A DNA stretch of 64,000 bases, from positions 87,391,795-87,455,794 of the forward strand of contig NC_134843.1 in assembly GCF_965363235.1 (NCBI RefSeq), read 5' to 3'. Origin of the DNA: Mytilus galloprovincialis. Its lineage: Eukaryota; Mollusca; Bivalvia; Mytilida; Mytilidae. The position numbers and the translations under genes were made by a program. Shown in pieces: positions 7,886-59,349 of the stretch (its first letter is position 1; every line of letters starts with the position of its first letter). The notes below the pieces were generated by a model. That model was not told the DNA's origin. It was given only the letters and a program-made list of their open reading frames with translations, and ran no database searches.

Positions 7886-8259
7886 ACCGATGGAAACACA
7901 TCAACTATAAAAGTAAATGTTTTGATACGATTTAATATACCTTCATGTTCTAATTTCTTGAAAAGAATGTAATTGTTTTATTTGTATTCTGAGATCACCC
8001 CATATTTCATGTAGTGTTCGTGTAGCCCAGTTTTTAGTTTTCATTGTTGTGTTTTGTGTTTTGATGTTTTCTGTTTGTCTTCTCCTTTTTTTGTTTAGGC
8101 ATGTCGTTGGTTTTTTTTTTTTATTTGATAGTTAGAATGTCTCTTTGATATTTTTCGCCATTCTCTTGTTCTTTGCTGACTCCAAGTCATGAATAAATCA
8201 CAACGATACAGAGATTGATGGCTACATGAAATAGAATTAAGAGGAAACATACATTAACC

Positions 8260-8265
8260 TTTATT
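8260..8265 (-). terminator. Poly(A) signal of copy 2
   Basis: TTTATT on the plus strand is AATAAA on the gene strand, 65 nt past the stop codon, at the position matching the copy 5 signal. Confidence 0.7.
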
Positions 8266-8329
8266 ATTTGTCGTTCACATCAATATTGACATGTTACTTG
8301 TTAATCTAATACAAGTTATAAGCGTCGTT

Positions 8330-9761
8330 TCAATGATATTTTCCTCGTCCCTTCCAGCCTCTGTTCCAGCCTCTATTTCCGCCATAACCTTTGGCATATC
8401 TATTGTATCTGTTATAGTTGCCACCTCCGTAACGCCTTGCGGGACCATAGTTTGGACCATAATACTTAAATATCAATAACAATTAAAGTCAGCATCAATA
8501 TTTATTCAGATGTATATTCAATAACGAAAACTAGTCCATACTAAAAAAAAGTGCCAGAAATCAATTGTAGGGGTGGATAGAAAATGAAAAATATATATAT
8601 ATTTTTTTTATTTCTCGTCAACTTTGAAAAGCTTCAAAATTGTTTTAAATACCGCTGGAGATGATGAAAAACGACAGACATATAAACATATAACAGAGTT
8701 AGAAGTAAGTAAGCACCAAATACTAAAACGATTTGTTAAAAAAAAATAAAGGACAACGCTTCAGAACCGTAGCTCATAAACCCTTATGATATTTGTTGAA
8801 AATTTCCCCTCATAGAGCTATATTTGTATATTTTTTTTATATTTTATAACGTTTCGAATGCCGCCACAGGTTCTGATGATAAAAATATTTCCCAGATTAA
8901 AAATGGTTCAACTAAAAATGCTTTAAAACTTACAGCAGCTGCATCTGAAAAACAAATCATAGGCATTAATCAATAATGTTTAATTAAAAATTTGTTTAAA
9001 ATGTCTGAAACTTTATCAGCAATTAAAAAATAAATATTAAACATATGACATATAACTGTGTTAGCAAGTCTTGTATATTATTTCTTCATTTACCATGAAA
9101 GATAAATAGTACAAAAACAAACATGTAATAAACATATACTTTGGTCCTCAATTCTTCACAACTTCAGACTTTATTTGGCCTTTTTAACTTTTTTGATTCG
9201 AGCGTGACAAAACGCGCTTCAGGTGTTTATACAAAATTTAATCCGGGTATCTATAATAAGTTTATATATTCAATGAGAAGATGGCGATATAATAAATCAG
9301 ATAGCGTTTCAGATTCACCCTATTTGTTACTACGTTAGCAGATTTATATTTCCTGAGTCAAATAATGCCTTTGTATGTTAAATATACAGATGCTAAGATT
9401 AATCAAGATTATTTAACTTTCTTAACAGTCACATTTTTCTATTGTGTTATTAAAGTTGCTGTGTTATAGTAGGAAACATGACTAATATTAAGTATTCCCG
9501 GATTTTTATGCTCTGCTGCCATTATTTTGAATGCGATACACTTATTTCATATATTCTGATTTCATATTATTTTGCAGTTACTAGAATTAAAAAAAAAAGA
9601 ATAAATGTAACATTCTGTTTAATATTTATAAAAAAAAATCTTGAAAAAAGAAATATTTTCAACAATTCTATTTTCAAGACAAGCTTTTACTTACCACTTT
9701 GCACAGCAAAGGATCCAATGAGGACTAAAACCAGCAACACTGAGACACTGATATTATTCAT
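8330..9761 (-). CDS. Copy 2: cationic Gly/Tyr/Arg-rich secreted peptide
   Basis: Three coding exons on the minus strand: 9761-9695 (67 nt), 8944-8934 (11 nt) and 8464-8330 (135 nt with stop), total 70 residues. Exon 1 encodes MNNIS plus the hydrophobic run SVSVLLVLVLIGSFAVQS, a clear signal peptide, probably cut after VQS. The microexon gives DAAA. Exon 3 encodes 44 residues beginning YYGPNYGPARRYGGG and ending GRGKYH, with 7 Arg, 3 Lys and no acidic residue. All junctions are GT-AG; the exon 3 acceptor is TTTAAG rather than the usual TTTCAG. Introns are 750 and 469 bp. The start is fixed by the single ATG after the TATA box. The protein is predicted to be secreted; membrane-active antimicrobial action is plausible from charge and family architecture (myticalin-like), not shown. 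Its duplicate is copy 5, with an identical signal peptide. Confidence 0.85.
9130..9265 (-). repeat. Dispersed ACGCGCGTTTCGTC-type element in intron 1 of copy 2
   Basis: Shares TTTGGTCCTCAAT, CAGACTTTATTTGGCC and GATTCGAGCGTGAC with 19370-19500, 19720-19865 and 39945-40090. The matching element is also in intron 1 of copy 5 (55590-55735), so it was there before the duplication. Confidence 0.75.
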
Positions 9762-9840
9762 AGTTCTCTAGTCAAACTGTTTGCAGGAAGAAGCTGGTTA
9801 CTGAGAAATATACTATGTTTTATTTGACAATTGTCTGCAC

Positions 9841-9927
9841 TTTATATATACTTTGATCCATCAAGTCACTGCAGAATTGTTCATCAAGCGAATAAATAAT
9901 TACACACATGTTTCTGCTACAATAAGA
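9841..9927 (-). promoter_or_regulatory. Core promoter of copy 2 (TATA plus conserved upstream box)
   Basis: On the gene strand TATATATAAA is at 9850-9841, 80 bp before the ATG. A box reading TCTTATTGTAGCAGAAACAT then GTGTGTAATTATT lies at 9927-9894, 44 bp above the TATA box. The same two elements at the same spacing precede copies 3, 4 and 5. Confidence 0.7.
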
Positions 9928-11111
9928 TTAGAATTAAAATTAAAAAAAATGGAGTGTACTTCATAATCCGTTTACCTTGTCACATTATTAACAAGATTGA
10001 CAATTTGAAGAGGGGAATTCCTAAAATGAATATTATTTCATTATAATGATTCATTAACAAAGAAATATATCTGTTGTAATGAGTGACAAAACAATCATCT
10101 TCCTTAAAAAATGCAATGCAATTACAGAACATTATTTTGTCTACTTCTTCACAATAAAAAATAAACTTATTTAAAAATCACACGATTATAAAAAGGGAAA
10201 AAGGGGAGGGGTCCTGTGAGAGAGTTTGTTTGTGCTGTTGATTAAGTCATGCATCGAGAGATAATTGAAAGTGTAAAAGAATATAAAAAAAATAATGTAG
10301 ACGTTTGCTAAAATAAAAGATGAATTGTATTACTTTTGTACTATATGGGTTCAAAACTAAGCACTGAAAATAATTGCAATTAACGCTACTGTAGCATTTG
10401 TGATACAACAATACTAATTTTTAAAACATTTAAGACGGGAAAATAGACAAAAAATTCATGGCAATTGTTTTTTATTACAAACATCTTCACCACGAATTTA
10501 TTTCTTATATAAGAAAAAGGAGCAATTTTTCAAAATGTGAATTTTATCAGTTGAGCGTTGTTTTAATTCATCTTGATCAAATGAGCCAAACGTTACAGAA
10601 CTATTGCAGTTAGACAAACAATTGTAATCAATGGTATTTTTGCTCCTTTTTTACCATTTGACATCAAATTCTCGGTTTAATAGCCGATTTTAGATAATCG
10701 GAGCTTTTTACTTCTGAATAGGGCAATATCGTCAGTGTTTTATTAAGATAAAAACATATCTTATTAGATAAGCTATATTAAATTATTTACTTTTGAAAGC
10801 TAGATAACCTCGGACTTGTATGAAAGAATTCCGAAATATTGACAACAATTTGGGACAAAACAAACAGGCACAATGGGGGTACATCAGTCAACACATCAGT
10901 CAACATTGAGCTATAATTCTTATATGAAAACAAACAAAGATGTCAAAAAAGAAAACAAAATGCCATATAGACAAAGCTTATAGGCAAAAATGAAACAAAA
11001 CATTCGAGGGATACATAAGTGCCGAGCCGCGCCAAAATGATATCACATTCGACCCGTTGTGCCTGTTGTTGTCGTTGTTCATCTTTAAATCTTTTTCTCT
11101 TAACGAAATTG
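9928..11111. other. Intergenic region upstream of copy 2
   Basis: No gene seen. Much of it (from about 10440) is clearly homologous to 53832-54500 on the other strand, including the block around CGATTTTAGATAATCGGAGC and the GAGCCGCGCCAAAATGATAT block. Conservation here reflects the arm duplication, not necessarily function. Confidence 0.55.
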
Positions 11112-11297
11112 CAAAAGTACGGAGCCCCGATAGGGACATGCAAAGAAAAAAAAATATATTGTGCGCACAACTTAATTATATTGTGTGCACGAAATAATAA
11201 ATTGTGCGCACGAAATAATATATTGTGCTCACAATTTAGATATATTGTGCGCACAATATGATATGGTGTGCGCCCAAAATTAGGAAAACAGTTTTCA

Positions 11298-11840
11298 CTT
11301 GACCATGAACTCATTTTATTATTCATTCAACAAGGTGAAATGTTCGCGGTTTAGACGAAATCTCAGATACCAAAGGCAATCGTTCTTTTATATTAGGTTG
11401 TATGAAACGATTTTAATGTCTACATGTCAACTTGACAGGTGTCATCTGACCTTGACCTCATTTTCAGGGTTAAGTTGTCCGGCAAAGTATTTTTTTGTGT
11501 TTGGTGTATTTCTCGGATACTATAAACATTTAGCTAGACATATTTGGTGTACGGAATGTTTGTATGGTGTAATTGTCTATCTTGCAGTAATATTAATCTG
11601 ACCTTGATTTTATATTCATGGTTCGTGTTATTTGATTCTTGTTTGGTCTGTTTTTCAGATACTATAAGGAATAAGTGAACTTTATTTGTTTTATGGACTG
11701 GTTGTAATATATATATATTTGTCTGACCTTGACTTTATTTTCATGGTTTATTGGTCAATTTTAAACATCTCAGAATTGGTCTATTTTTTAGATATGATAA
11801 TAAATGTATAGTTTAACAGTATTTAGTGTAAAAAATAATT
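11298..11840 (+). repeat. Tandem ~125-155-bp units inside the 3-kb element
   Basis: Unit starts CTTGACCATGAACTCATTTT, CTGACCTTGACCTCATTTTC, CTGACCTTGATTTTATATTC and CTGACCTTGACTTTATTTTC lie near 11298, 11446, 11600 and 11724; each unit carries a TAGATACTATAA-like block. Confidence 0.7.
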
Positions 11841-11889
11841 ATAAGGCGCGCATGTTTTATAAGGTTTGTTTCTTAGATACATTTGGTTC

Positions 11890-12360
11890 TTCAATACAGC
11901 AAGAAAATCTCGCACCCAAAGGCGCGCTTCAGCTGGCCTATAAACAAAAATATGTACTAGTTCAGCGATAATGGACGTCATACTAAACTTCGTAAGTGTT
12001 TCTCGTTTCTCGTTTTTTTATATAGATTAGGTTTTCCGGTTTGAATGGTTTTCCACTAGTAATTTCGGGGACCCTTTATAGCTTGCTGTTTGTTGTGAGC
12101 CTAAGCTACGTGTTAAAGACCGTGCTTTGACCTATAATGGTTTACTTTTATAAATTGTGACTTGGATGGAGAGTTGTCTCATTGGCACTCATACCACATC
12201 TTCCTTTATCTATCCAAAATATATAAAAGAAACTAAAATCAAAATTCACAAAAGACCAACACAAAGGCCAGAGGCTCCTGACCTTGGACGGACACAAAAA
12301 TGCGGCGGAGTTAAACATGTTCTGTGAGATCTCAACCCTCTTTTTGTACCTCTAGCCAAT
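11890..12360 (+). repeat. Dispersed repeats (two families, adjacent)
   Basis: TCTTCAATACAGCAAGAAAA to TAATGGACGTCATACTAAAC belongs to the family at 3420-3770. Then comes a SINE-like tail with TATAGCTTGCTGTTTGTTGT and GGAGAGTTGTCTCATTGGCA, also seen at 13040-13210, 18600-18740 and 60840-61070, and then a GGCCAGAGGCTCCTGACCTT block. Confidence 0.7.
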
Positions 12361-13039
12361 GCAGATAAAAAAAAATCAGTTTAACAGAAATCCGTGTCTG
12401 ATGTCAAAATAGGTAACAAATGAAACTTAACAAAATGACAATGATACATAAATTAACAAAGGACTACTAGCAGTTACTGACATGCCAGCTCCACACCTCA
12501 ATTAAACTGATTGAAAGATTATGACTTTCTTCATTATTTGAATATCAAGCATAATCCCTCTCGTTAGGGGTTGAGTATCATACCATCATAAAATATATGA
12601 GAAGAAAATAACCCGTATTTGTATGAGCTATGTTGTATATGTATTATGTTTTCTCTTTCTACTCGCATCGATCGCGATCAATCGGCCACAAGTTTTTGAA
12701 TAAATGATGCCCCAAAACGGACCATTTTTGGAAAAATTGAATCATAATTGTTTCGTTTGTTTTCAAAATATACCACTGAGGAATACTTTTTCATTGACTA
12801 TTCCTAAATTGCTAAGTAACATTTCAGTTTCTTAATGAATACGAACAATATTCTGTAAAATTGTATAATGCAATCGATCAAAAATAGATACTATCAGTGA
12901 CCTTTTGCCCTCTCTTCTTTTAATCAGAATGAATCTTGGCCTGAAACATTTGTACACAACTCTTGAAAAAATTCTAAATCATAATTAGCATACTGTTCTA
13001 CGTCGGAAACTTGTTATTCAGTGGTAGTCGTTTATTGGT

Positions 13040-13210
13040 GTGGTTCATATATGTTTATCGTTTTGTTACAGTCATTTTGGGCCTTTTATAGTTTGCTGTT
13101 AGGTGTGAACCAACGCTCCGTAATGAAGACCGTACTAATAACTAGTAACTTTTAATAAATTATGATTTGAATGGAGAGCTGTCTCATTGGCACTCATATT
13201 GCATCTTTTG
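13040..13210 (+). repeat. SINE-like tail repeat
   Basis: Contains TTTATAGTTTGCTGTTAGGT and GGAGAGCTGTCTCATTGGCA followed by CACTCATATTGCATC, parallel to the copies at 12000-12200, 18600-18740 and 60840-61070. Confidence 0.7.
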
Positions 13211-14117
13211 ATTTATATATGTACTCAGTTTTATCTCTATTTGATTACAACTTTATGGTGAATTTGTTAGACTGAACACACCGTCACATTTCAATAACGA
13301 ACAGTACATTTGGGTCAAAACAGTACTTAATCATGAACAAACAGAGTCATCTTTAATGATAAAAAAAAACTTGTGTACGTGTATTCAGTTTTCAGTGGAT
13401 TTGACTTACTCTACACAATGATATGTTTAGAGAAACCACATTATTCATTTAAGTTGATGACACTAAAACTTCATCATAAACTATAACTAAATCATTTACC
13501 ATAAACACAGACGGACGGATGAACAGACGTAAAGACTTTTAAATATAATGGCCATCTCTATCGTCGACGGAGCATAACAAAATCAAAGTCGTGAATTGAG
13601 GAACTTGTGTCAATCAAAACAAAATATTGAGATTTTCAGAAATAAAGTATAATGCATAAGTGCAAATAGTAGTTGTATATTTGTTACAAGAAAGTCTACG
13701 TAGGTTCGATAGTGTTCTCGCTCTATTGTAAAGTCTGTTTCAAACCGTTCCAATAAACTCTGATATAAAGTGGAGGCTTCCGACGCATCTGTTGGTAAAC
13801 CAAGTTTCAGACGAAATAAACGTAATTTATTCAGTATTCATGCATGTCAGGAGTCGATACAAATGCACTGATGATTTTTTGCTAGAGTATTTCCATGTAA
13901 TCTAGCCCTATTTAAAAGAAAACCTTATGCATTTCTCTATTCTGGCAATTTAAAAAGGAGACATTGAAGCCCTGTACCATGTGTAAGGTCAAAGAATTTA
14001 ACGCACACTATATTATGTTGTGCGCACAATATATTTAATTGTGCGCACACTATATTATTTTGTGCGTACAATATATTTTTTTTCTTTGCATGTCCCTAGC
14101 GGGGCTATGTACAAAAG

Positions 14118-15375
14118 TTTACCCAAAGAACGTTTCTTTGGAAAATAAAGTGAAAATAAATATAAAAAAAATGAAAAATATTTGTTTTGAGAAAAATTGA
14201 AGGTCTTTCCATTTCACATGTTGATACTAAAGATAATATAATTTTAATGTCGGGGTCTGTTAAAGCTGACTATGAGGTATGAGTTTTGCCGTTGTCAAAG
14301 GCCTTTTTGTAGCCTTTAATTAATTCAGTTCAATACATTTGAACTTTGATTGGTAGCTGTTTCATTGTCAACCATACTACATTTCCATATTTTTATATTT
14401 TACACAGATTTCCACAGATTTTTTTTTAAAAACAAAACAAATTGCCTTCGTTAAAACAAAATTTTCAGAAAGTAACGATTTAAACAAAAAAACAGTTATT
14501 CATCGAATTGATCATTTAATTTTAAAAAAGACACAAATCAAGGTAACTTAACAAAACATTGAATCAAAAGTAAAATCACAAAAATACTGAACTCAGAGGA
14601 AAATCAATTCGGAAAGTCCATAATCTCATCTTATAAGAAAATTTAGATACTTTATTCTTACACTAAAAGTACATGCTAATTATATTATATCTTAATTGTC
14701 AGTTTAAATTAACGTTAAGCCTAATTAAATAATATAACTCAACATCCAAAAGACCTTACGAACATGTAATTTATTTCTATCTCTTGCCATTTTAATATTA
14801 CATTGCTTTAAAAGTCCATATATTAATGCTTATATATCAATTCACGACTTGTTGTAAATACACTGGTTTTTATGGTGGAGGATGCTGTTCATTCATATTT
14901 TACAGAGGATTTATTGTGTGTTTTAATGTACATATACTGTTAGCATTTATCGGTCTCGTCCGAGTGCTCCTAAACAGGAGGGAATTACGAAAGAAGAAGA
15001 AGACATGGCAAAATCAAATAACAAGACGCATCAAAATCATAAATAAAATCCAATGTGTGTGTCTCATGCTACACATGCATCAGCAACCATGTGGAACCAA
15101 ACTCGAAAAGACATCAAACATCTAAATATTTTCCAAAAAAAAGCAGTTGTGAAGATTTCTGTATAGAAAGGTGGATTTAGCTAAACTCTTTTCCATTAGA
15201 TGTTTTGAAATATTTTTAGCTACGTATTTTGAAACAGCATAGAGGGACATTTCTGTTGTTGTTTTAGAGCCCATAAGAAACGAAATGTAAATGTTTTCAT
15301 GTTTATCCACAAAAACATCAAAAGTTCTTGTACAGAAACATTCTTTCGTGTTATAACCGTATCCATTGTTGAATT
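14118..15375. other. Intergenic, arm-homologous sequence
   Basis: No gene seen. The part 14118-14460 matches 53530-53825 and 15120-15310 matches 53065-53310, both on the other strand. The open frames here are mirrored but frame-disrupted between arms, which argues against coding. Confidence 0.5.
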
Positions 15376-15379
15376 TTTT

Positions 15380-16012
15380 AATACGCTTTCTTTTAATTTG
15401 AATAACTGACGAGGTCAGGTTTCCTCTATTTTGAACAACTGAATAGTTTAACTTTCTTTTGTTTCGAATAACTGAATAGTTAAGGTTTCTTCTATTTTGT
15501 ACACCTAAATAGTTAACTTCTTTTATTTCGAATAACTGAATAGGTCAGATTTCTTTTGTTTCGAATAACTGAATAGGGCGGGTGTTTTCTTTTTTGAACA
15601 ACTGAATAACTGAATAGGTATTTTTTTCTATTTTGAATAACTGAATAGATCAGGTTTCTTCTATTTTGAACAACTGAATAGTTTAACTTTCTTTTATTTT
15701 GAATAAATGAATAGGGCAGGTTTCCTCTATTTTGAACAACGGAATAGTTTAACTTTCTTATGTTTCGAATAACTGATTGGTCAGATTTCTTCTATTTTAA
15801 ACAACTGAGTAGTTTAACTTTTTTTTATTTTGAATAACTAAATAGGTCAGGTTTGTTATAATTGGAATAACTGAAAAGTTTAACATTCTTTTGTTTTGAA
15901 TAATTGAATAGGGCAGATTTCTTCTTTTTTGAACAACTGAATAGATTAATTTCTTCTATTTTGAATAACTGTGAAGGTTATCTTTTTTCAATTTTGAATA
16001 ACTTATTACTCT
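15380..16012 (-). repeat. Minisatellite array, 33-bp alternating units (left arm)
   Basis: On the minus strand it is a tandem array of TTCAGTTATTCAAAATAAAA and TTCAGTTGTTCAAAATAGAA type units, each about 33 bp, alternating. It is the counterpart of the array split over 47.39-49.01 and 51.78-53.03 kb in the right arm, but only about 0.63 kb long here against about 2.9 kb there. Confidence 0.85.
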
Positions 16013-16439
16013 CCCAATGAAACACATCGATGAAATAATTTGGTTCATTTTATTTGACCTTTTTCATTTTCCGTTAATGCAAATGATTTGACATGGTATT
16101 TGGATTTAAGAATTCACGCACATTTTTCTTTTAGTTTTAATCTTGTTGTAACATAAACATGTGTTTGATAATTTGTTTCCTCTTGATTAACAGATCAGCA
16201 GTATTATGATTTTTGACTTTTTCTCTAATTTGTATGAATATAAATAAATGAATTTGATGTTTAAATTTTGTTTTATTTGAAATAATATCAAAATAATCAA
16301 TGACAAACATAACACTATACACAGATTCTGTATTAATAACACAGAATCGCTTATTTTTTTAAAAGATTTAGAAAAAAAATATCTTGGTGTTTATTTTTTT
16401 TAACAGAACACAATTTTTTCGCTTTCACAGGGTACAACA

Positions 16440-16760
16440 GGAGATAAAATTGAGAATGGAAATAGGAAATACGTCAAAGAGACAACAACCCGACCAAAGA
16501 GTAGACAACAGCTGAGAGTCACCAATATGTCATTAACGGGAGGTGGTCCTCAGCTGGCCCCTAAATAAAATTTAGTTCACTGAAAATTGACATCACACTA
16601 AACTCCAAAACAAACAAATGAACTCAAAATTAAAAAAAAAACATACAAAACTAACAAAGGCCTGAGGCTCCTGACCTAGGACGAGCCAAAATTTGCGACG
16701 GGGTTAAACATGTTTAATGAGATCTCAACTTTCTCCATAACCTCTAGGTAATTATTTTTC
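16440..16760 (+). repeat. Dispersed repeat (GAGAATGGAAATAGG family)
   Basis: Opens ATTGAGAATGGAAATAGGAA, includes GGTGGTCCTCAGCTGGCCCC and GCCTGAGGCTCCTGACCTAG. Same order as at 3420-3770 and 56460-56810. Confidence 0.75.
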
Positions 16761-17334
16761 TTTTATCTTTTATTCAAACTTTCGTTTCAAGTCATATCAA
16801 GAATTTTCTAGCCTCGTATTATGACCCGACACTACAACGCTTAGCTAAACTGAGAACGTGCAAATTTTAGAAAAATTGTTACTGTTTATCAAAACAAAAA
16901 TTGTTTTACAAATTTTGTACGGAAAAGGACTCATTTTCTGATTTCACGTCCTATATGCTTTAGAAATGTTTAAATTTGTATTATGCAAACTTTATCAACG
17001 AAGAGGGAAAAGATTTGACTTGCTTGCTATGGAACTCTTGAGGAACAACATAGAAATATGTCAATCATCTTTCAACGTTCTTTTCGGAAAACGTCTTGAA
17101 TAGTTTGTTCGTCTGTGATAACACATTTTCAAAGGTCTCCAGCACACAATTGTCATGACAAAATCAACAGCTCATAACTTTCTCTGGAACAACTTTCCTC
17201 ACCGTGTATGTGTTTTTTTTAATTAGCTTTGTTCTATTGATAACTCCAGAAAAGTTAAAGAAGCCAAGTTATGTTCTTTAATTGCATTGCGTTTGTTTAA
17301 AATCATTTATTACAACGTTATTTTTCCTTTAAGG

Positions 17335-17520
17335 TGGTACCTAACACTTCAGGGAGATAACAGCTAAACGTGATAATTACGCTGTGTTGTTAAGGGAATA
17401 TTAAGCTTTTAAATTATCAAAATTAGTGTTTATCAAACTGCAATATAACTAGTGTATCTTTTTTGGTGAAATGATTGGTTCAATTTTTTTGAAATTTTTA
17501 TATTTTTGTCAAAGGGTCAA
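17335..17520 (+). mobile_element. Partial AAGGTGGTACC-type MITE
   Basis: Begins AAGGTGGTACCTAACACTTC, the same terminal sequence as the complete element at 37871-38149, and shares internal TTTGACAAA and AATTTTTATA blocks. It lies within a duplicated piece of promoter-distal sequence: 17190-17340 is repeated at 17530-17680. Confidence 0.6.
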
Positions 17521-17794
17521 AGTAAATACTTTCCCCATCGTGTGTGTCGGTTTTTTTTTCAATTGGTTTTGTTCTATTGTGTATACCTGTAAAGGTGAAG
17601 TAGCCAAATAATGTTCATAAATTGCATTGCGTTTGTTTAAAACATTTCTTAGAACTATATTTTTCCTTCAATGAATCAAATAATGAAATAATCTACATTT
17701 CTTGGAATACTTTCTTTTAAATTTCCATTCTTGCACATAATGTGACAATGTATACAGATTATGCTATGCACTGACATTTGTATTTTAACTTTAA

Positions 17795-17879
17795 TCTTAT
17801 TGTTTCAGGAACATGTGTGTGATTATTTCTTCCTCTTGATTAACAGATCTGCAGTGAGTTGATAGAACAAAGTATATAT
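17795..17879 (+). promoter_or_regulatory. Core promoter of copy 3 (TATA plus conserved upstream box)
   Basis: The upstream box TCTTATTGTTTCAGGAACAT then GTGTGTGATTATTT is at 17795-17828. A TATA box (TATATAT, then C) is at 17873-17879, 45 bp below it. A TCAGT initiator-like motif lies at 17904-17908 and the ATG at 17947. The promoter looks intact although the gene's last exon is broken. Confidence 0.65.
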
Positions 17880-18599
17880 CACGCGCAGACAACTGTCGTT
17901 TTCTCAGTAATCAGATCCTTTCTGCAAACTGTTTGAATTGAAAACAATGAATGATACCAGTGCCGTAGTTTTGGTGGCTTTAGTCCTTATTGGATCATTT
18001 GCTGTGCAAAGTGGTAAGTAAAAATTTGACTGACGTAAAATAATTGTTAATGTATTTCATATTCATTTTATTCTTTGAAGATTTTGTATTGCCTACAAAA
18101 CTAACTAATGAAGTTGATTTTATGTTTCGATTTTTGAAATTTTAGTCACCGCAAGAAAAAAAAATGTTTTAAACTTCTTTAGTAATTTGATCTTTCGTGG
18201 AGAATTGTCTCATTGGCAATCACACCACATCTTCTTTTTTTTATATGATGAAACAGTTGTACCATATTCAGAATAACGACCGATATGAATTTAAAATCTT
18301 AAAACAAATAATATTATCTTTTTTACTCTTACTCTTCGAAAATTGAGCAATATTAATACACAACATGTAATAGAAAATCAACAAAATAGTGCACCTGCGC
18401 ACATCAAATATGTGACCTTTCGTTACTATCTTTTTGTTAAGTTAATAGTCTTGTTTCATCAAAGCATTTGTACAGATAAAAGGGAAATTCATTGTTAGAA
18501 GCGAGACAATATCAATCTGAAAACGTAGTAACAACTAAAGTGTTTGCAAAAGGATATCTAAATATCATCGCTCTCTTTCCTCAATAAAAGGTTTTTTTG

Positions 18600-46327: not shown

Positions 46328-46559
46328 TTAAATTTAAAATACAAATGTCAGTGCATGGCATAAATTGTATACATTGTCACATTATATGCAAGAATGAAAA
46401 TTGAAAGGAAGTATTCCAAGAAATGTAAATTATTTCATCATCTGATTTATTTAAAAGAAAAATATAGTTGAAATAAATGTTTTTTAAACAAACGCAATGC
46501 AGTTAAAGAACATTACTTGGCTTCATGAACCTTTTGGGTGTTATCAATAGAACAAAGTT

Positions 46560-47389: not shown

Positions 47390-49007
47390 TGTCTGACCTA
47401 TTCAGTTATTCGAAAAAAAGAAAGTTAAACAATTCAGTTGTTCAAAATAGAATAAATCTGACCTATTCAGTTATTTAAAACACACAAGAGTTAAAGTATT
47501 CAGTTGTTCAAAATAGAAAAAAAAACTGAACTTTTCAGTTATTCAAAACATAAGAAAGTTAAACTATTCCGCTGTTCAAAATAGAAGAAACCTGACCTAT
47601 TCAGTTATTCGAAACAAAAGGAAGTGAAACTATTTAGTGGTTCAAATAAAAGAAACCTGACCTATTCAGTTATTCAAAATAAGAAAAAAATGACTTATTC
47701 AGTTATTCAAAATAAAAGAAAGTTTAACTATTGAGTTGTTTAAAATAGAAGAAAACTTATCTTTTCAGTTATTCAAAAAAGAAAAAATGACTTATTCAGT
47801 TATCTAAAATGAAAGAAAGTTTAACTATTCAGTTGTTTAAAATAAAAGACATTACCCTTTTCAGTTATTCAAAATAAAAGAAAGTTAAAATGTTCAGTTG
47901 TTGAAAATAGAAGAAATCTGACCTATTTAGTTATTCAAAATAAAAGAAAGTTACACTACTCAGTTGTTCAAAAGAAAGAAACCTGATCTATTCAGTTATT
48001 CAAAATAGAAAAAAAAATAACTATTCAGTTGTTCAAAAAGAAAGAGACCTGATCTATTCAGTTATTCAAAATAAAAGAAAGTTAAACTATTCAGTTGTTT
48101 AAAATAGAAGAAATCTGCCCTATTCAGTTATTCAAAATCAAAGAAAGTAAAAATGTTCAGTTGTCAAAAATAGGAGAAACCTGATCTATTCAGTTATTCA
48201 AAATAGAAACAATGACTTATTCAGTTATTCAAAATGAAAGAAAACTAAACTATTCAGTTGTTTAAAATAAAAGTAAGTTAAACTATTCAGTTGTTAAAAG
48301 CAGAAGAAATCTGACCAATTCAGTTATTCAAAATAAAAGAAAGTACACATGTTCAGTTGTTAAAAATAGGAGAAAACCTGATCTATTTAGTTATTCAAAA
48401 TAAAAGAAAGTTTAAATATTCAGTGGTTCAAAAAGAAAGAAAGTTTAAATATTCAGTGGTTCAAAATAAAAGAAACCTGATCTATTCAGTTATTCAAAAT
48501 AAAAGAAAACTGATTTATTCAGTTATTCAAAATAGAAAAAATGACTTATTCAGTTATTCAAAATAAAAGAAAGCTAAACTATTCAGTTGTTTAAAATAAA
48601 AGAAAGTCCACTATTTAATTGTTTAAAAAAAAGAAACCTGGTCTATTCAGTTATTCAAAATAGAAAAAAAAATGACTTTTTCAGAAATAAAAGAAAGTTA
48701 AAATGTTCAGTTGTTAAAAATAGGAGAAACCTCATCTATTTAGTTATTAAAAAAAAAGAGAGAGTTAAACTATTCAGTTGTTCAAAATAGATGATATCTG
48801 ACGTATTCAGTTATTCAAAATAAAAGAAAATTAAAATGTTGAGCTATTCAAAATAGAAAAAACCTAACCTATTCAGTTATTCAAAACAAAAGAAAGTTAA
48901 AATGGTCAGTTGTTTAAAATAGAAGAAACCTGATCTATTAAGTTATTCGAAAAAAAGAAAGTTAAACTATTCAGTTTCTCAAAATAAAAGAAACCTGACC
49001 TATTCAG
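47390..49007 (+). repeat. Minisatellite array, 33-bp A/B units (right arm, part 1)
   Basis: Tandem alternation of unit A, TTCAGTTATTCAAAATAAAA plus GAAAGTTAAACTA, and unit B, TTCAGTTGTTCAAAATAGAA plus GAAACCTGACCTA; each is 33 bp, giving a 66-bp higher-order period, with many point variants. Because 66 is a multiple of three, runs of open frame appear; they are not genes. Confidence 0.9.
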
Positions 49008-51776
49008 TTAAAGACCAAACAGCCTATTCATTTCTATCAGTGATTTTTCCTTCAAATTTTGTGTGAAGGTGTTGCATGATTTGAGGAACAAAATATGATG
49101 AAGAAAATTGGGGGTCATTGACTTACTTTTGTCACTATAGCAACCTCAGTTTCGTGTTTTCCCGAATATTTACATAATATTTGCTTGTTATCTAAACACT
49201 CAAAAAAATGCTTTATATCAAACCTACAAGCATAATTCTTGTTTCACGTTAAACAGTAGATTTGTATCTTTCAAATACAGGTTCAGGAGTTTAAGGCTTA
49301 TATTGATTTGATTTTTAAAAATATGATTTATTTCATTCCCGCAAAAAATTAAACGTAAAACTAAAAAACGTTTCCAGGTTAAAAAATATCTACCAGTGAT
49401 TTCTGCATAAAAATTTAAAAAAGGAAAGTGCCATATGTACTCCTCAGAACAAAGCAAAAAAAGTGTATGTCACCGACCTTTCAAAAAAGTTATGAGTAAT
49501 TTTCATGCTTTTTTCTCGTTCGTTTTGAAGAAAAGAGTTGTCTTTCTTCAGAACATTGCATTTGACGTCATAGTACAAACTTTCCTTGCTGGCGCTCTAT
49601 TTGAAAAAAAAATCGAAATTGGACGTTTGAAACCCACATTTAAATATCCAAGAATAACAACTATATTCACCTACTTTATTATCCGGTAATACTAGAGATT
49701 AAGCATGTATCAGTTTCAGATCTTTATGATGTTGTTGCTGCACAATATAAACCTTCAGAAACATCATCCGTCGGAATGGAAAATTGTTTCAATAACCTTT
49801 CATGCCGCTTTTGTATAGAAAGTCTGTTTTTGTCCTCTGTCCCACATAAGCAAAATTATTGAAAATAAAAAATAAGAAATGAAAGATGGCACTGGGTAAC
49901 TTACAGAGTATTTGACTATACCAGCCTATAGGTGTGCTTGTTTCTTTTTCGCGTCAATTTAAGAAGTTTGCTGTAACGAACTCATTCGGTACTGTTGAAA
50001 GACGGACATGCAAAAGCATGGACGCAGTTCTTTATGCCATTATTTTCCCGACTAAGACGAATGTTTAGAAATTATTGCATCGAGTTAGTGAATTCATTAT
50101 TTTTGAATACTTAAGATATAAGGAAATTGAAATTAAAGGTATAATATATGAATGAAAGTTTTGATTCTAAAACGTTATACGTACAGCTATCTTTAAATGC
50201 AATCCTTTTATTACTACCTCATGTGTTTTCAATAAACGAGACAGTAAATATAAAATACAAAAAGTGTTTGATTCAAAAATTAATTCAGAAATAATTTTCC
50301 GTTGAAAACTATAAACTTTCAGTAAGATTTCTCCAACAGGATAAAATATAATAAATCTAAATTGCTCAATTTGAAAATTAAAACAAAGAAAAGGTTGTTG
50401 GCGGCATTGAAAATCGTAATTTATTTTCAATCTTTCCGGTCACAGTTGTAGCTAAATGAAAGGGAGCGATTTTATGCAAGATATTATTCTTGGAACAATT
50501 GTTTTTGTCATAAGTTAAATTTACAACAACTTAGTTTTAAACACTGAACATTTTAATTAACATTCGCTGAGTATTTGTTTTATTAATATGTTTTGCCTTA
50601 CAGCTAATTCCCGAATGCATGTAGGGTAAAACTTTGGTTGGCTTCCTTGCTTTGCTTGTATTAATGTTTACTCAAGCTGTAATTAAGATTGACATCTTCA
50701 TATAAAGGTATGTAAACCTGTTCATATGCTATTTAATTTAATTGGACGTTATCAAAATATAATTATACAAAATATACAAACAAAGCAAGCAGGCAAACCA
50801 AAGTGTTGATCTACATACATTAGGAAATTAGCTGTAAGTTTCAGTGAGATTAGACGATATGTTTATCAGTTCTCCTTAAGACAATTTGAAATGAAACAAA
50901 TGACAAACAAAAATGACCCTTTGTCATCATTTTATTTTTACTATAAGATTTTGTCAAATAAGCAGTATAAATAAATTGTGACTTCATTGCATGATCGGAC
51001 ATTATTTTACGAGAATCATCCAGACATCAATTACATACATGCACATGTTGCCAGTATGTCAAAACTTTGAGGAATAATTGATTATCGGCCTAACCTTGTG
51101 AATACTCAATTTTTGAAATTTTTGAAAAATTGACACTAAAATTAGAAGGATCATTGCATAAGGAACATTTTTACTAAGTTTTAAGTTGATATGACGTCAA
51201 CTTCGTTAAAATCTATCTTGACCAAAAACTGTAACCAAAAACTTTTACCTGAAGCGGGACAGACGGGTGAACGAATGCACAGACCAGAAAACATAATGCC
51301 CATAAATCGGGCATAAAAATAACTTTCACCTAACATGTACACAATCGGCGCAAACGAAAGACAAAATGTACGCAAATGAAAAAGAAAAATAATGAAATGC
51401 AGATCCACGATCATCATCATGGCAAATATAGGACAAAATCTACTCATGTGAAAGAATAAAAAAATGAAATGCAGAACGGCGCAAATGCAAAAACTCGGGA
51501 TCAAAATTTATATTTTATTATTGTTATTAGAACGAAGGTTAAATATAGTGTAGTATCTTATGTGTCCATTTGTGTTAAATTTCAACAGGATATTAAAGTA
51601 GCGCAACGCATAATAGTTCCTACGTAGCGTACACCATGTTGGAATCCGTGAAAAACGCGAAATAGGACGTTATAATTTGACTTTTTTCATTGCTAGAAAC
51701 AACGTCATAGAGCTTTCAAGTCACTACCAAGTTGCGTTAGCTCATGCGCATTAACAATAGGCTGTTTGGTTTTTAA
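49008..51776. mobile_element. TTAA-flanked 2.76-kb element inserted in the minisatellite
   Basis: Inverted ends AGACCAAACAGCCTATT (49012) and AATAGGCTGTTTGGTTT (ending 51772) are bordered by TTAA at 49008-49011 and 51773-51776. Removing it joins TATTCAG-TTAA-TTGAAACAAA, which matches the array unit CAGTTAATCGAAACAAAAG at 52107-52125. This is a precise insertion with piggyBac-type target choice. No transposase frame is seen; 49435-49689 is open but unrecognised. Near 51250-51480 there are short direct repeats with CAAATGAAAAAG-like units. Confidence 0.85.
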
Positions 51777-53030
51777 TTGAAACAAAAGACAATCAAAATC
51801 ATCAGTTGTTCAAAAAAGAAAAAAAAAACTGACCTATTCAATCATTTAAAACAAAAGAAAGTTAAACTATTCAGTTGTTCAAAATAGAAAAAAAACTGAC
51901 CTATTTAGCTATTCAAAATAAAAGAAAGTAAAATTATTCTGTTGTTCAAAAAAGACGAAACCTGGCCTATTCAGTTATTCTAAATAAAAGAAAGTTAAAC
52001 TATTCAGTTGTTTAAAATAGAAGAAGTCTGACCTATTCAGTTATTCAAAACACAAGAGAGTTAAATTATTCTGTTGTTCAAAATAGAAAAAAAACCTGAA
52101 CTATTCAGTTAATCGAAACAAAAGCAAGTTAAACTATTCCTTTGTTCAAAATATAATAAAACCTGAACTATTCGGTTATTAGAAACATAAGAAAGTTAAA
52201 CTATTCCTTTGTTCAAAATAGAAGAAAGCTGAACTATTCACTTATTCGAAACAGGAGACAGTTAAACTATTCCGTTGTTCACAATAGAAGAAACCTGAAC
52301 TATTCAGTTATTCAAATAAAAGAAAGTTGAACTATTCCATTGTTCAAAATAGAAGAAACCTGACCTATTTAGTCATTCAAAACAAAAGAAAGTTAAACTA
52401 TTCAGTTGTTCAAAATAGAAAAAAACCTGAACTATTCGGTTATTAGAAACATAAGAAAGTTAAACTATTCCTTTGTTCAAAATAGAAGAAACCTGAACTA
52501 TCCAGTTATTCAAAATAAAAGAAAGTTAAACTATTCCGTTGTTCAAAATAGAAGAAACCTGAACTATTCAGTTATTCGAAACAAAAGAAAGTTAAACTAT
52601 TCAGTTGTGCAAAATAGAAGAAACCTAAACTATCCAGTTATTCAAAATAAAAGAAAGTAAAAATATTCAGTTATTCAAAATAGAAGAAAACTGAACTATT
52701 CAGTTATTGGAAACAAAAGAAAGTTAAACTATTTCGTTGTTCAAAATAGAAGAAAACTGAACTATCCAGTTATTCAAAATAAAAGAAAGTAAAAATATTA
52801 AGTTATTCAAAATGGAAGAAACCTGACCTTTTCAGTGTTTCGAAATTGAATAAAGTTAAACTATTCAGTTGTTCAAAATAGAAGAAACCTGACCTATTCA
52901 GTTGTTCAAAATAGAAGAAACCTGACCTATTCAGTTATTCAAAACAAAAGAAAGTTATACTATTTAGTTGTTCAAAATAGAAGAAAACTGACCGCGTCAG
53001 TTATTCAAAATAAAAGAAAGCTTATTTAAA
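51777..53030 (+). repeat. Minisatellite array, 33-bp A/B units (right arm, part 2)
   Basis: Continuation of the array at 47390-49007 on the other side of the TTAA element, with the same alternating 33-bp units. It ends near 53030, beyond which sequence matches the left arm at 15.1-15.35 kb. Confidence 0.9.
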
Positions 53031-54924
53031 AATTCAACAAGGGGTAAGGCTATAACACGAGATAATGTTTAGTACAAGAACTTTTGACGTTTTTGTGGAT
53101 AAACATGAAAACATATGATTGAATTATTTATATTTCGTTTCTTATGGGCTATAAAACAACAACAAAAATGTCCCTCTATGCTGTTTCAAAATACGTATCT
53201 GAAAAAATTTCAAAACATCTAGATGGAAAAGAGTTTACCTTAATTCACCTTTCTATACAAAAATCTTCACAACTGCTTTCTTTTTTGAAAATATTTAGAT
53301 GTTTGATGTCTTTTCGAGTTTGGTTACACATGGTTGCTGATGCATGTGTAGCATGCGACACTCATATTGAAATTTATTTGATTCAAGGTTTTGTTAAGTT
53401 ATCTTAATTTGTGTCTTTTTTTAAATTAACTGATCAATTCGATGGATAATTTTTTAGGTTTTTTGTTTAAATCGCTACTTTCTGACATTTTTGTTTTAAC
53501 GAAGGCAATTTGGTATGTTCTTTTTTTTTAAATCAGGGGAAATCTGTGTAAAATATAAAACTATGGAAATGTAGTATTGTTGCCAATTAAAAAGCTACCA
53601 ATCAAAGTTTAAATGTATTGAACGGAATTAATTAATTAAAGGCTACAAAAAGGCTCAAAACTCATGCTTCATAGTCAGCTTTAATATACCCCGACATTAA
53701 AATTCTATTATCTTTAGTATCAACATGTGAAATGGAAAGACCTTCAACTTTTGTCAAAACAAATATTTTTCATTTTTTTCATTTTTATCTTAACTTTATT
53801 TTCCTAAGAAAATTCTTTGGGTAAACTTTTGCCATTTCGTTAAGAGAAAAAAATTAAAGCTGGGCGACAACAACAGGCACAACGGATGGAATTTGATATC
53901 CTTTTGGCGCGGCTCGGCACTTATGTACCCCTCGAATGTTTTGTTGTGCTTTGGTGCACTTTTTGTATTTCTGTCTTTAATTTTGCCTATGAGCTTTGTC
54001 TATATGGCATTTTGTTTTCTTTTTTGACATTTTTGTTTGTTTTCATATTAGTATTATAGCTCAATGTTGACTATGTGTTGACTTATATACCCCCATTATG
54101 CCTGTTTGTTTTGTTTCCAATTGTCAATATTTCGGAATTCTTTCATACAAGTCAGAGGTTATCTAGTAATCAAAAGTAAATAATTTAATAAAGCTTCTCT
54201 AATAAGATAAGCTTCTATCTTAATATAACACTGACGATATTGTCCTATTCAAAAGTAAAAAGCTCCGATTATCTGAAATCGGTTATTAAACCGAAAATTT
54301 GATGTCGAATGGTAAACAAGGAGCAAAAATACCATTGATTACAATTATTTGTCTAATTGCAATAGTACTGTAACGTTTGACTCAACAGATAAAATCAACA
54401 TTTTGAAAAATTGCTCCTTTTTTGTTCTTATATAAGAAATTAATTCATGGTGAAGATTTGTGTAATAAAAAACAATTTCCATGAATGTTTTGTCTATTTT
54501 CCCGTCTTAAATGTTTTAAAATTAGTATTGTTGTATCACGAATGCTACAGCAGCGTAAATTGCAATTGTTTTCAGTGCTTAATTTTGAACCCATATAGTA
54601 CAAAAGTAATACAATTCATCTTTTATTTGAGCAAACGTCTACATTATGATATTTTTTACACTTTCAATTATCTCTCGATGTATGACTTAATCAACAGAAC
54701 AAACAATTTTTCTCACAGGACACACACACCCTTTTCCTTTTTTCTAATCGTGTGATTTTTAAATAAGTTTATTTTTTATTTTGAAGAAGTAGACAAAATA
54801 ATGTTCTGTAATTGCATTGCATTTTTTTTTTAGGAATTCCCCTGTTCAAATTGTCATTCTTGCAAATAATGTGACAAGGTAAACGGATTATGTAGTACAC
54901 TCCAATTTTTTATTTTAATTCTAA
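53031..54924. other. Intergenic region upstream of copy 5
   Basis: No gene seen. It is the mirror of 9.93-11.1 and 14.1-15.35 kb, including the empty site of the 3-kb element at 53826-53831. Confidence 0.6.
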
Positions 54925-55011
54925 TCTTATTGTAGCAGAAACATGTGTGTAATTATTTATTCGCTTGATGAACAATTCTGCAGTGACTTGATGGATCAAA
55001 GTATATATAAA
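54925..55011 (+). promoter_or_regulatory. Core promoter of copy 5 (TATA plus conserved upstream box)
   Basis: Upstream box TCTTATTGTAGCAGAAACAT plus GTGTGTAATTATTT at 54925-54958; TATATATAAA at 55002-55011, 44 bp below. The ATG is 80 bp below the TATA box, as in copy 2. Confidence 0.72.
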
Positions 55012-55090
55012 GTGCAGACAATTGTCAAATAAAACATAGGATATTTCTCAGTAACCAGCTTCTTCCTGCAAACAGTTTGAACAGAAAACT

Positions 55091-58000
55091 ATGAATAATA
55101 TCAGTGTCTCAGTGTTGTTAGTTTTAGTCCTCATTGGATCCTTTGCTGTGCAAAGTGGTAAGTAAAAGTTTATCTTGAAAATAGAATTGTTGAAAATATT
55201 TCTTTTTTCAAAGCCTTTTTTATAAATATTAAACAGAATGTTACATTTATTCTCTGTTTTTTAATTCTAGTAACTGCAAAATAATATGAAATCAGAATAT
55301 ATGAAATAAGTGTATCGCATTCAAAATAACGGCAGCAGAGCATAAAAGTCCGGGAATACTTAATATTAGTCATGTTTCCTACTATAACAGAGCAACTTTA
55401 ATAACACAATAGAAAAATGTGACTCTTCAAAAAGTTAATAATCTTGATTAATCTTAGCATCTGTATATTTAAAATACAAAGGCATTATTTGACTCAGGAA
55501 ATATAAATCTGCTAACGTAGTAACAAATAGGGTGAATCTGAAACGCTATCTGATTTATTATATCGCTATCTTCTCATTGAATATATAAACTCATCATATA
55601 TACCCGGATTAAATTTTGTATAAACGCCTGACGCGCGTTTTGTCTACAAAAGGTTCATCAGTGACGCTCGAATAAAAAACAGTTAAAAATCCCAAATAAA
55701 GTCTGAAGTTGTAAAGCATTGAAGACCAAAATAAATGTTTATTACATGTTTGTTTTTGTACTATTTATCTTTCATGGTAAATGAAGAAATAATATACAAG
55801 ACTTGCTAACACATTTATACGTTTCATATTTATTTTTTAATTGCTGATAAAGTTTCAGACATTCTAAACAAACTTTTAATTAAACATTATTGATCAATGC
55901 TTATGTTTTTGTTTTCAGATGCAGCTGCTGTAAGTTTTAAAGCATATTTTGTTCAACCATTTTTCATCCTCAAATATTTTTATCACCTGAACATGTGGCG
56001 GCATTCGAAACGTTTCAAAATAAAAAAAAAATACATAGCTCTATGAGTCGAAATTTTCAAAACATATCATAAGGGTTTATGAGCTACGGTTCTGTAGCCC
56101 TTTTCACAGAAAATCTTAAGTGTAAAATTTATCGTAAGTCTAAAAAAATCCTCAACAATGCAACTAAATATTTTTATCTGAAGATTAATTTTACACTTTT
56201 TTGTAGAAAGGCCTACAGAAGCTTTGTCCTTTATTTTTTTTAACAAATCGTTCGGTATTTGGTGCTGAATTACTTGTAACTGTGATATATGTTTCTATGT
56301 CAGTCGCTTTTCATCATCTCTAGCGGTATATATCGTTATCTAAATATTCGTTTAGGAATCTAATGTAATAGTTGACATGTATGTTTTGAAGTTCCCTCAA
56401 GTTTTATTAACTACTGTCTAAAGTGTGTGATTAGATTTTGTGAGGCTTTTTGATGTTCGCTAAACAATGAAATTGAGAATGGAAATTGGGAATGTGTCAA
56501 AGAGACAACAACTCGAGCATAGAGCAGACAACGGCAGAAGGTTACCAACAGGTCTTCAATGCAGCGAGAAATTCCTGCAACCGGAGGCGTACTTCAGTTT
56601 GCCCCTAAACAAATATATATATACTAGTTCAGTGATAATGCACGCCATACTTAACTCTGAATTGTACACAAGAAACTCAAATTAAAAATAATACATAATT
56701 AAAAGGCCAGAGGATCCTGATTTGGGACAGGTGCAAAAATGCGGCGGGGTTAAACATGTTTATGAGATCTCAACCATCCCCTATACCTCTAGCCAATGCC
56801 GAAAAGTAAACTCATTTCGATATTTGCTTTACCATTGTCTTCTTTAACGCACTTCATGGCTAAAATACTGAAAAATATTACACCCCAGTTCTATTGTTAT
56901 ACTTCATAGTTTCTATATTTGACGCAAATGTAAATTAAATAAATCTATTGTTACAAATAACAATGGATTTTGACGGCAGGGTGTGACGAGCGGGTTTCTG
57001 GAAACCCCTGCTTCTACATCCCGCAAACAAAGTCCATTGTTATTCAAAACAATAGAAATTAATCATTTTTTAAATAGCATAAACATAAAAAAACTAATAT
57101 TGTTCTCTACAAAACACATTTTAGGAAATTCAAAAAGCGAAAAAAAATATTAAGCATCTATTTCGAATACAAAAGTTTCCTTTGAATACTGCTTTGCTTT
57201 AAGGTAAAAAAAGTATTCAAGTTATATGTCTCTATTCTTAAGCATATAGATCTGGAAAAAACTGGAATTCTAACTCCCGGACCCCCTCCCCCCTTTTTCT
57301 CCAGTTTAATCTGTGGCCGTTGGTGTTCTGCGGGTTTTATTTAAACGATCAATGCATTTGAATGGTTGGGTCCGTCTCTATTGAGTTGGGAACCCTCCGC
57401 TTGATCAGCCCCTGATTGACTCAAAAAAGGAAGTTTCTAAATTTTAAATCTGTTTCTTTGTATTACGTTGGGTGTGTCTGGTAGTCTGTTTCGAATGCAG
57501 ACACACTCATCTTTTAGTATGTTCTATTATGGATATTTGTTTTTTTTTTCTCGAGTAGAGGTGGGGGGATGGGCTTTTTTTAATATAAAATTGTAAGATA
57601 TAACAGTTATACTATAGTTTACCTTTATTAAACGGATACAAGTTAGTACTTTAATTGGGTGGTAATATTGCCTTCATCTTTAGTGTCTTCCAACAAATTC
57701 AACGCCTGCCACAAATTTCGTCCGTCTTATATACGACCACATTAACAACTACATACAAGGATCATGATTTATTTCCGCTTTGTTTGTAATAAAAATACAC
57801 GAAAATGTCAACCTTGACCTGGTGATCCATATTAGCACATGGATTTAACGGGAATATACAAAACAGCAACTTCGACATTGGTAAAATATACTCACTTGTC
57901 AAAATTTGAACGAAGATAGCCTAAGAAAGGTTACAATTGGAGTTTCATGCAATACAGAATATTTCTTATAAATCATGGTTTGATATTGTCAATGATTAAG

Positions 58001-58550
58001 CTTTTTTTTTTTTTTTTCAATAAATGGTTTAGAATCGAAAGTATGTTAGTTATACAATTGGGGGTACGGCGTGTATGGATAAAACAATACCTACGTACTA
58101 CGGCCGACGGTATTTCTTATCCGGACACACCTATCCCTCAGTGTATCATTTTTACATATTTACCTGTATTTTAAGAAATTATATTGTCATGTTTCCGTGT
58201 AGAAGGTGTAAAACACTTACAGTAGGCAAATTTTGTACGAAGTTTAAAACAATTTTGAAGCTCTACAAGGTTGACGAGAGATAAAAATAAAAAAAATTTT
58301 TTTTTCATTTTCTATCCACACCTACAATTAACTTCTGACACTTTTTTTTAGTATGGACTAGTTTTCGTTATTGAATATACATCTGAATTAATATTGATGC
58401 TCACTTTAATCGTTATTAATATTTCAGTATTATGGTCCAAACTATGGTCCTGCAAGGCGTTACGGAGGTGGCAACTATTACAGATACAATAGATATGGCG
58501 GAAATAGAGGCTGGAACGGAGGCTGGAGGGGACGACGAAAATATTATTGA
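55091..58550 (+). CDS. Copy 5: cationic Gly/Tyr/Arg-rich secreted peptide
   Basis: Exons 55091-55157 (67 nt), 55919-55929 (11 nt) and 58428-58550 (123 nt with stop) give a 66-residue precursor. The signal peptide is identical in protein to copy 2, with two silent changes in exon 1. The microexon gives DAAA. Exon 3 encodes 40 residues from YYGPNYGPARRYGGG to GWRGRRKYY, with 8 Arg, 1 Lys, 2 Trp, 10 Tyr and no acidic residue. Compared with copy 2 it lacks four codons in the middle. Splice sites are GTAAGT donors and TTTCAG acceptors. Introns are 761 and 2498 bp; intron 2 is five times longer than in copy 2 through repeat insertion. Predicted secreted; myticalin-like antimicrobial function is a hypothesis. 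A structural role cannot be excluded for a Gly/Tyr-rich peptide. Confidence 0.88.
55590..55735 (+). repeat. Dispersed GCGCGTTTCGTC-type element in intron 1 of copy 5
   Basis: CCTGACGCGCGTTTTGTCTA, TTCATCAGTGACGCTCGAAT and CAAATAAAGTCTGAAGTTGT; inverse of 9130-9265 in copy 2. Confidence 0.75.
56460..56810 (+). repeat. Dispersed repeat (GAGAATGGAAATTGG family) in intron 2 of copy 5
   Basis: ATTGAGAATGGAAATTGGGA, GGTCTTCAATGCAGCGAGAA, AGTTCAGTGATAATGCACGC and GGCCAGAGGATCCTGATTTG in order; the most complete copy in the window. Absent from intron 2 of copy 2. Confidence 0.75.
56945..57055. repeat. Short inverted repeat in intron 2 of copy 5
   Basis: AATAACAATGGATTTTG and CAAAGTCCATTGTTATT are inverted about 65 bp apart around a GC-richer core. 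MITE-like; no flanking duplication established. Confidence 0.5.
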
Positions 58551-58614
58551 AACGACGCTTATAACTTTTATTAGATTAACAAGTAACATGTCAATATTGG
58601 TGTGAACGACAAAT

Positions 58615-58620
58615 AATAAA
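58615..58620 (+). terminator. Poly(A) signal of copy 5
   Basis: AATAAA 65 nt after the stop codon. Confidence 0.7.
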
Positions 58621-59349
58621 GCTTGATGTATGTTTCCTCTTAATTCTATTTTATGTACCCATCAATCTGTATCGTTGTTATTTATTCATGATTTGGAGTC
58701 ATATAGAACAAGAGAAAGGCGAAACATATCAAGGGGACATTCAAACTATTGAGTTAAAAAAACCGACATGGATAAAAAACGAGATAACAAACAGAAAAAC
58801 ACCAGGACACACAACATAACATAGAAAACTAAAAACTGGGCTACACAAACACTACAAAAAATATGGGGTGATCTTAGAATATGATAAAACAATTACATCC
58901 TTTTCAAGAAATTAGAAACATGAAGGTATAATAAATCGTATGAAAACATTTGAGGAAGTAAAATTTCCGTCTTAATCCCACATACAAACATGCCCCCTTG
59001 ATATGGATGAGGTTGGGGCAAACTACGAACCATTCGTGATTGTTTCATTGAAAATTTCATGAGCAATATATCTTGTTTGTATAGGATACCTATTCCACTG
59101 ATGACGGTATGTTATCGCCTCACACACATTTTTCCACCAAGAACTCAAATAACGTCTATACAATTTTCCATCGCGGTCATTTTCTGAACTGAATTATATC
59201 AAACCTTCAACTTTTCATCCTTTACAAAACCATACCACAGGAAAAAACACAATAGGAAGACATAATCAACACTACCTACCATCATACAATTTGTACCATA
59301 TTCTACACATTTAATTACCGAGAGTACAATTCTGCATATTTTGTTTAAA

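Follow-up and report, generated by a model that had tools for sequence, protein, structure and literature searches.

The 64,000-nucleotide window of the Mytilus galloprovincialis genome analyzed here (C6:87391795-87455794) holds part of a locus for foot protein 3 (fp-3), a primer protein of the mussel underwater glue, which binds byssal plaques to rock. We propose, with a probability of about 0.87, that this locus consists of three-exon fp-3 genes, that a divergent pair of window copies, c2-c3, is mirrored as c5-c4, and that the window belongs to a 440-kb cluster of inverted modules that grew in two steps. Inverse duplications would first have generated divergent modules, and at least one module would then have been copied in tandem; some members, such as c3, would have decayed, and parts of the arms were perhaps homogenized by gene conversion. 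The analysis is based on one assembled haplotype, in which 1.38 Gb were searched. The cluster DNA was read over 264 kb without N, window included, and over three smaller stretches (L029-L031), while 87.167-87.322 Mb and some lower parts stayed unread.

Gene copies and exon structure

All window genes share one plan, in which a microexon of 11 nt separates the signal-peptide exon from the exon for the mature protein. The signal exon ends, at its donor, with a single base of a split codon, to which the mature exon cannot be joined directly in its own frame. The 11-nt microexon, present with acceptor and donor motifs in 5 of 5 window copies, closes the gap between these two exons, which are otherwise out of frame. 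On the minus strand, c2 has its signal-peptide exon at 9695..9761, with a TATA-like box 89 nt upstream of the ATG, its microexon (ATGCAGCTGCT) at 8934..8944, and an open mature fp-3 exon with a Pfam match at 8330..8464. The plus-strand copy c5 carries the same microexon (ATGCAGCTGCT) at 55919..55929, between a signal-peptide exon at 55091..55157 and an open mature fp-3 exon at 58428..58550, which also matches Pfam. Similarly, c4 on the minus strand comprises a signal-peptide exon (46094..46160), a microexon (45454..45464; ATGCAGCTGAT, giving the residues DAAD when the split codon is included), and an open, Pfam-matching mature fp-3 exon (42967..43101). The fifth copy, c1, runs on the plus strand across the left edge of the window: its signal-peptide exon lies outside, at window coordinates -513 to -447, its microexon at 98..108, and its open mature fp-3 exon, again with a Pfam match, at 1597..1725; we found no TATA-like box for this copy.

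The remaining copy, c3, lies on the plus strand and retains an open signal-peptide exon (17947..18013), with an altered TATATAAAG-like motif upstream, as well as a microexon (18931..18941; ATGTCAGTGAT). Its mature exon (20480..20620, end approximate) meets a stop after 11 codons and is shifted in frame downstream, and c4 yields a spliced protein of 70 residues; the earlier suggestion, made from the letters of the DNA, that c3 is dead and c4 intact was therefore correct. A conserved block upstream of the mature exons of c2, c3, c4, and c5 contains the TATA-like motif and the signal peptide, which reads MNNISV(S/A)VL(L/V)(V/A)LVLIGSFAVQS in c2, c4, and c5 and is altered near its start in c3.

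A broken inverted duplication

The head-to-head pair had been placed in an inverted duplication of >13 kb, and this duplication is real, though broken. When the window was compared with itself, 7915-21379 matched 42311-58951 collinearly in reverse, and chained alignment with satellites masked resolved the matches into 13 collinear blocks of opposite orientation, which define arm A (7915..21379, plus strand) and arm B (42311..58951, minus strand), separated by a spacer of 21 kb. The five best arm-arm HSPs have E = 0 and 83-92% blastn identity, and the 13 blocks, once realigned, amount to 6519 ungapped columns with 9.9% differences. The gap-free alignable part is thus about 6.5 kb, compared with arm lengths of 13.5 kb (A) and 16.6 kb (B). 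Large indels interrupt the alignment and leave arm-specific stretches of up to ~3 kb, one in arm A (11.1-14.1k) and three in arm B (43.8-45.3k, 49.0-51.8k, and 56.3-58.2k); a reverse diagonal does join the arms collinearly in a self dot-plot, as had been anticipated, but it is not continuous. Palindromes of the Y-chromosome type have arms that are >99% identical; with ~90% ungapped identity, the arms described here are not near-identical palindromes of that type.

The homology extends well past the genes, as the sequence-only reading had asserted. When the noncoding segment 10150-11110 of arm A (961 bp) was compared with the genome, 2 of the 42 matches listed were full length, namely, the self-match and the mirror partner in arm B (85%). 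The remaining 40, from a search in which the best 40 of 519 first-look candidates were scored, are short and all fall inside one ~260 bp stretch. Toward the outside, a collinear match at 82-84% between 4284-5297 and 63629-64449 was dropped as an extension of the arms because it is a dispersed repeat, with copies at ~82-94% on contigs C1-C14 (best 40 of 3555 candidates scored), and the arms therefore end near 7915 and 58951. A retroelement-like match just beyond both arms (6830-7448 with 59262-59869, 65%) was likewise excluded, as it belongs to a repeated family with 20 matches in the cluster DNA.

Retroelement-like pieces and 33-bp satellites occur near or within the arms. An AT-rich 33-bp array detected by self-comparison separates c2 from c3 (15387..16003, minus strand) and has its mirror partner in a 33/66-bp array at 51780..53020 (plus strand); a further AT-rich 33-bp array is found at 47393..49010 (plus strand).

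The partners within the duplication were established from trees of 44 exon-1 or exon-2 blocks of at least 200 bp (23 and 21 rows), drawn from the 50 blocks of a blast inventory after six shorter ones were dropped. The exon-1 and the exon-2 tree both join c2 with c5 as sisters (support 100/99). The exon-2 tree also joins c3 with c4 (96/98), a pair that the exon-1 tree does not resolve as sisters. Since a direct copy would pair c2 with c4, the pairing of c2 with c5 and of c3 with c4 points to one inverse duplication of the c2-c3 unit. The arrangement is hence the one first described, c2 and c3 being divergent and c4 and c5 their mirror image, and the alignment of the arms beyond the exons agrees with the duplication in inverse of a whole divergent locus. 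The proposed "shared upstream region" fared less well: c2 and c3 do diverge, but the start codons are 8.2 kb apart (8.9 kb for c4-c5), too far for a compact bidirectional promoter. An older head-to-head duplication inside each arm is poorly documented; similarity between c2 and c3 is limited to ~500 bp at 74%.

Divergence is uneven along the arms. Measuring identity along them, as had been recommended, gave a noncoding divergence of 8.0% in the outer half (314/3915) and 13.6% in the inner half (298/2186), and the outer value stays below the inner one when the c2/c5 block at 8758-10026 is removed (246/2737, 9.0%). Over the 13 blocks, divergence increases inwards (Spearman 0.68, p 0.011), and the observed segment contrast was reached in 0 of 60 column permutations, a figure to be taken as a guide only given that columns are non-independent. 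Two processes may account for this pattern: conversion between the arms in their outer half, or duplication in two events. The latter explanation, which replaces the conversion step only, holds that c3-c4 stems from an older duplication and c2-c5 from a separate, younger one, and it draws on the same contrast between the halves and on the same permutations. We regard it as a credible possibility, if the less probable one, since collinearity extends over all 13 blocks and through both halves, which a single event explains more simply; we favor conversion only slightly.

The wider fp-3 cluster

Among 27 exon matches to the Pfam profile PF04202 in the genome (E <= 0.01), a count that leaves out the dead mature exon of c3, 26 fall within C6 87.114-87.553 Mb, a single 440-kb cluster around the window; the remaining match, on C4, is weak (E 0.0099). 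An fp-3S-like peptide gave eight matches, all on C6 at 87.465-87.572 Mb, just downstream of the window. In total, 24 loci were inventoried on C6, intact and dead together: 16 of the fp-3F type, one of which has a mature exon only, and 8 of the fp-3S type. Signal exon, 11-nt microexon, and mature exon are all open in five of the eight fp-3S-like loci, and the one fp-3S-like protein tested scores above the Pfam Mfp-3 cutoff. We call these downstream genes fp-3S-like for their resemblance to the slow variant of M. californianus (Mfp-3S), and the label is one of resemblance; they have the same three-exon plan as the fp-3 genes of the window.

The microexon is widespread in the cluster. A pattern that allowed 8-14 nt returned 21 matches in the 264-kb stretch and L029-L031, every one of them 11 nt long, with 20 at inventoried loci and one a lone relic. 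With one further microexon added to these, it is present at 21 of the 24 loci. Three loci lack a pattern-matching microexon: one that consists of just a mature exon, one in which both the signal exon and the mature exon are open, and a broken fp-3S-like locus. Junction residues are mostly DAAD or DAAA in fp-3F, c2 and c5 having DAAA, and DAGY in most fp-3S-like loci. The open-licence literature, as far as its passages on fp-3 were available, contains no description that we could find of an fp-3 microexon or of an inverted fp-3 cluster.

Mirror-image organization recurs outside the arms. Copy c1 is a member of another inverted pair, together with a gene that has the start of its mature exon at window -23854 (five blocks, 79-85%), and fp-3F/fp-3S units face each other around window positions 76k, 124k, and 143k. 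Each of these last three modules is a direct copy of the other two, at ~87-96% over long pieces. Their left members cluster in the exon-1 tree, with support of 100/98 for fp-3S-like and 100/99 for fp-3F, and the right members of the same modules yield one pair per kind, supported at 93/94 and 97/93; the exon-2 tree is weak (89/78) or unresolved for these modules. The grouping of left with left and right with right in exon 1 suggests that the mirror arrangement probably preceded the tandem copying of the downstream modules. Strand alternation was not used as evidence, as 11 strand changes among the 23 neighboring pairs of the 24 loci are about what chance would give. The left member of the divergent fp-3S-like pairs looks broken in three of three cases, which weakens the idea of a promoter shared by divergent fp-3S-like genes.

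The cluster also bears on whether the mirror image could be an assembly artefact, with two divergent haplotypes of one locus set side by side. Mussel genomes are highly heterozygous and contain many hemizygous regions, according to a passage of PMC7653742, and our evidence comes from a single assembly. Nevertheless, the arms are ~10% apart in ungapped noncoding sequence and differ by multi-kb indels, they are oppositely oriented within a 264-kb N-free stretch of a 103-Mb contig, and the same cluster includes other inverted modules of differing divergence, all of which makes an artefact highly improbable.

Foot protein 3 rather than an immune peptide

The spliced proteins of c1, c2, c4, and c5 match the Pfam family Mfp-3 (PF04202) with E values of 1e-29 to 3e-39, and their exon-2 peptides do so at 5e-10 to 2e-17. 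With the fp-3S-like protein included, 5 of 5 spliced proteins pass the PF04202 cutoff of 22, at 51.9-133.6 bits. The spliced c4 protein is identical at 69 of its 70 residues to the published Mytilus fp-3 Q9GUX8, whose sequence we took from an excerpt of PMC9287526. The two agree over the signal peptide, the DA|AD junction, where DAAD had been predicted from the microexon, and the mature peptide, the exception being N31 in c4 instead of K31. The microexon spans the signal-cleavage site of Q9GUX8, as given in the part of the published record available. Compared with Q9GUX8, c1, c2, and c5 are further variants and c3 is a pseudogene. The protein evidence marks the DNA as that of a Mytilus mussel, in line with the mussel origin assumed in the sequence-only reading.

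As expected of fp-3, the mature peptides are short, Gly/Tyr-rich, and basic: those of c1, c2, c4, and c5 have 42-46 aa, an unmodified mass of 5.0-5.6 kDa, and a pI of 10.3-10.4. A passage of PMC9472010 gives 5-7 kDa as the mass of Mfp-3, and one in PMC4275877 locates fp-3 at the plaque-substrate interface. The genes had been read as cationic-peptide genes, which holds for the charge (pI above 10) but was based on the last of three exons only; the peptides are cationic because fp-3 is rich in Arg and Lys. No known antimicrobial peptide profile was matched, Mfp-3 being the only family above cutoff in Pfam. The view that the genes serve mussel immunity by encoding cationic antimicrobial peptides, such as relatives of the myticalins, can appeal to mature peptides that are short, secreted, and strongly basic and to the myticalins themselves, which excerpts of PMC5577615 and PMC12294457 describe as linear, cationic antimicrobial peptides of mussels encoded by a multigenic family, but it is largely refuted by the Pfam profiles and the near identity to fp-3 and has almost no chance of being right. 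The same two lines of evidence overturn the immune-effector theme of the sequence-only reading, and they identify the window genes, at the level of sequence, as byssal adhesive fp-3 genes. From what is established about fp-3, the foot would be expected to transcribe the intact copies and to secrete their products as variants that bind byssal plaques to rock; modification of Tyr to DOPA and of Arg to hydroxyarginine would likewise be expected of an fp-3.

Comparison with known systems

The closest architecture appears to be that of the mouse major urinary protein (Mup) cluster, which encodes an unrelated protein in an unrelated animal. As described in a passage of PMC2533699, a gene pair was duplicated in inverse there as well, and there are divergent head-to-head gene/pseudogene pairs and later tandem copies. 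Each of these elements has a counterpart in the mussel: a head-to-head pair is duplicated in inverse, with c3 and c4 resolved in the exon-2 tree only; one member, c3, has become a pseudogene; and tandem amplification has affected the neighboring fp-3F/fp-3S module, not the window's own pair. In this last respect the clusters differ, since one gene/pseudogene pair was strongly amplified in Mup.

In Perna viridis, fp-3 genes are neighbors on one scaffold and are read as tandem duplications in a passage of PMC7971044; no inverted fp-3 module is described there, as far as 12 of 17 places in that source are concerned. Perna fp-3 is cysteine-rich according to an excerpt of PMC7018726. A multiple-copy gene was earlier suggested for M. 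galloprovincialis fp-3, again in a passage of PMC7971044; together with the Perna neighbors, this means that the multiplicity of fp-3 is not in itself new.

Implications for fp-3 diversity

Excerpts of the literature note fp-3 for its diverse variants (PMC9472010), with 11 in one Mytilus species and 15 in another (PMC7018726). The mirror-image and tandem duplications of this region could explain why mussels have so many versions of fp-3. A tentative extension, which we consider rather unlikely at present, is that the cluster acts as a variant generator, in which mirror modules convert and change in copy number so that the set of fp-3F and fp-3S genes differs from mussel to mussel. Presence/absence variation is known in M. 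galloprovincialis generally, as stated in part of PMC7653742, the main text of which lacks the words "byss" and "foot." If the cluster were a variant generator, most of the fp-3 variants seen in mussels would represent paralogous genes at a single locus, and not allelic or splicing differences.

The identification of these genes as fp-3 corrects a tempting misreading of them as immune peptides. It also gives fp-3 diversity a genomic address, consisting of 24 inventoried loci on C6 in a cluster read in part. The question whether paralogy, allelic variation, or conversion produced the variants, and the question whether mussels differ in fp-3 gene content, can now be addressed at one interval.

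Repeats in and around the arms

Both divergent pairs of the inverted duplication carry a 33-bp AT-rich satellite in the stretch that separates their two genes: one array in arm A (window 15387-16003) and two in arm B (window 47393-49010 and 51780-53020). Immediately outside arm A, 3.7 copies (93%) of a 353-bp unit occupy window 5311-6607, and pieces related to this unit occur near window 19.3k and 40k. Arm A is also flanked by retroelement-like fragments, one on either side (window 6798-7448 and 21948-22448), which share ~69% similarity; a weak RVT_1 match, under the Pfam cutoff, was obtained in the former only.

Related loci beyond the window

Farther along C6, the contig carrying the foot protein 3 cluster, the first intron of an fp-3F locus (C6:87486203-87511600, window 94409-119806) apparently contains ~25 kb of additional DNA, which separates the signal-peptide exon from the microexon; the locus also has a broken mature exon. 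From their order, we infer that the signal-peptide exon and the distal end belong to a single fp-3F gene. On a different chromosome, a single weak match to the foot protein 3 family, Mfp-3 (G000:C4:101285798-101285959, E 0.0099), falls in an open frame of 171 aa.

Two fp-3S-like genes stand head to head at C6:87534716-87535322 (window 142922-143528, derived positions). The left one is apparently broken, and so, it appears, is the left gene in each of the comparable pairs around window 76k and around 124k. The start codons at window 142922-143528 are ~600 bp apart, and the interval between them may once have been a bidirectional promoter.
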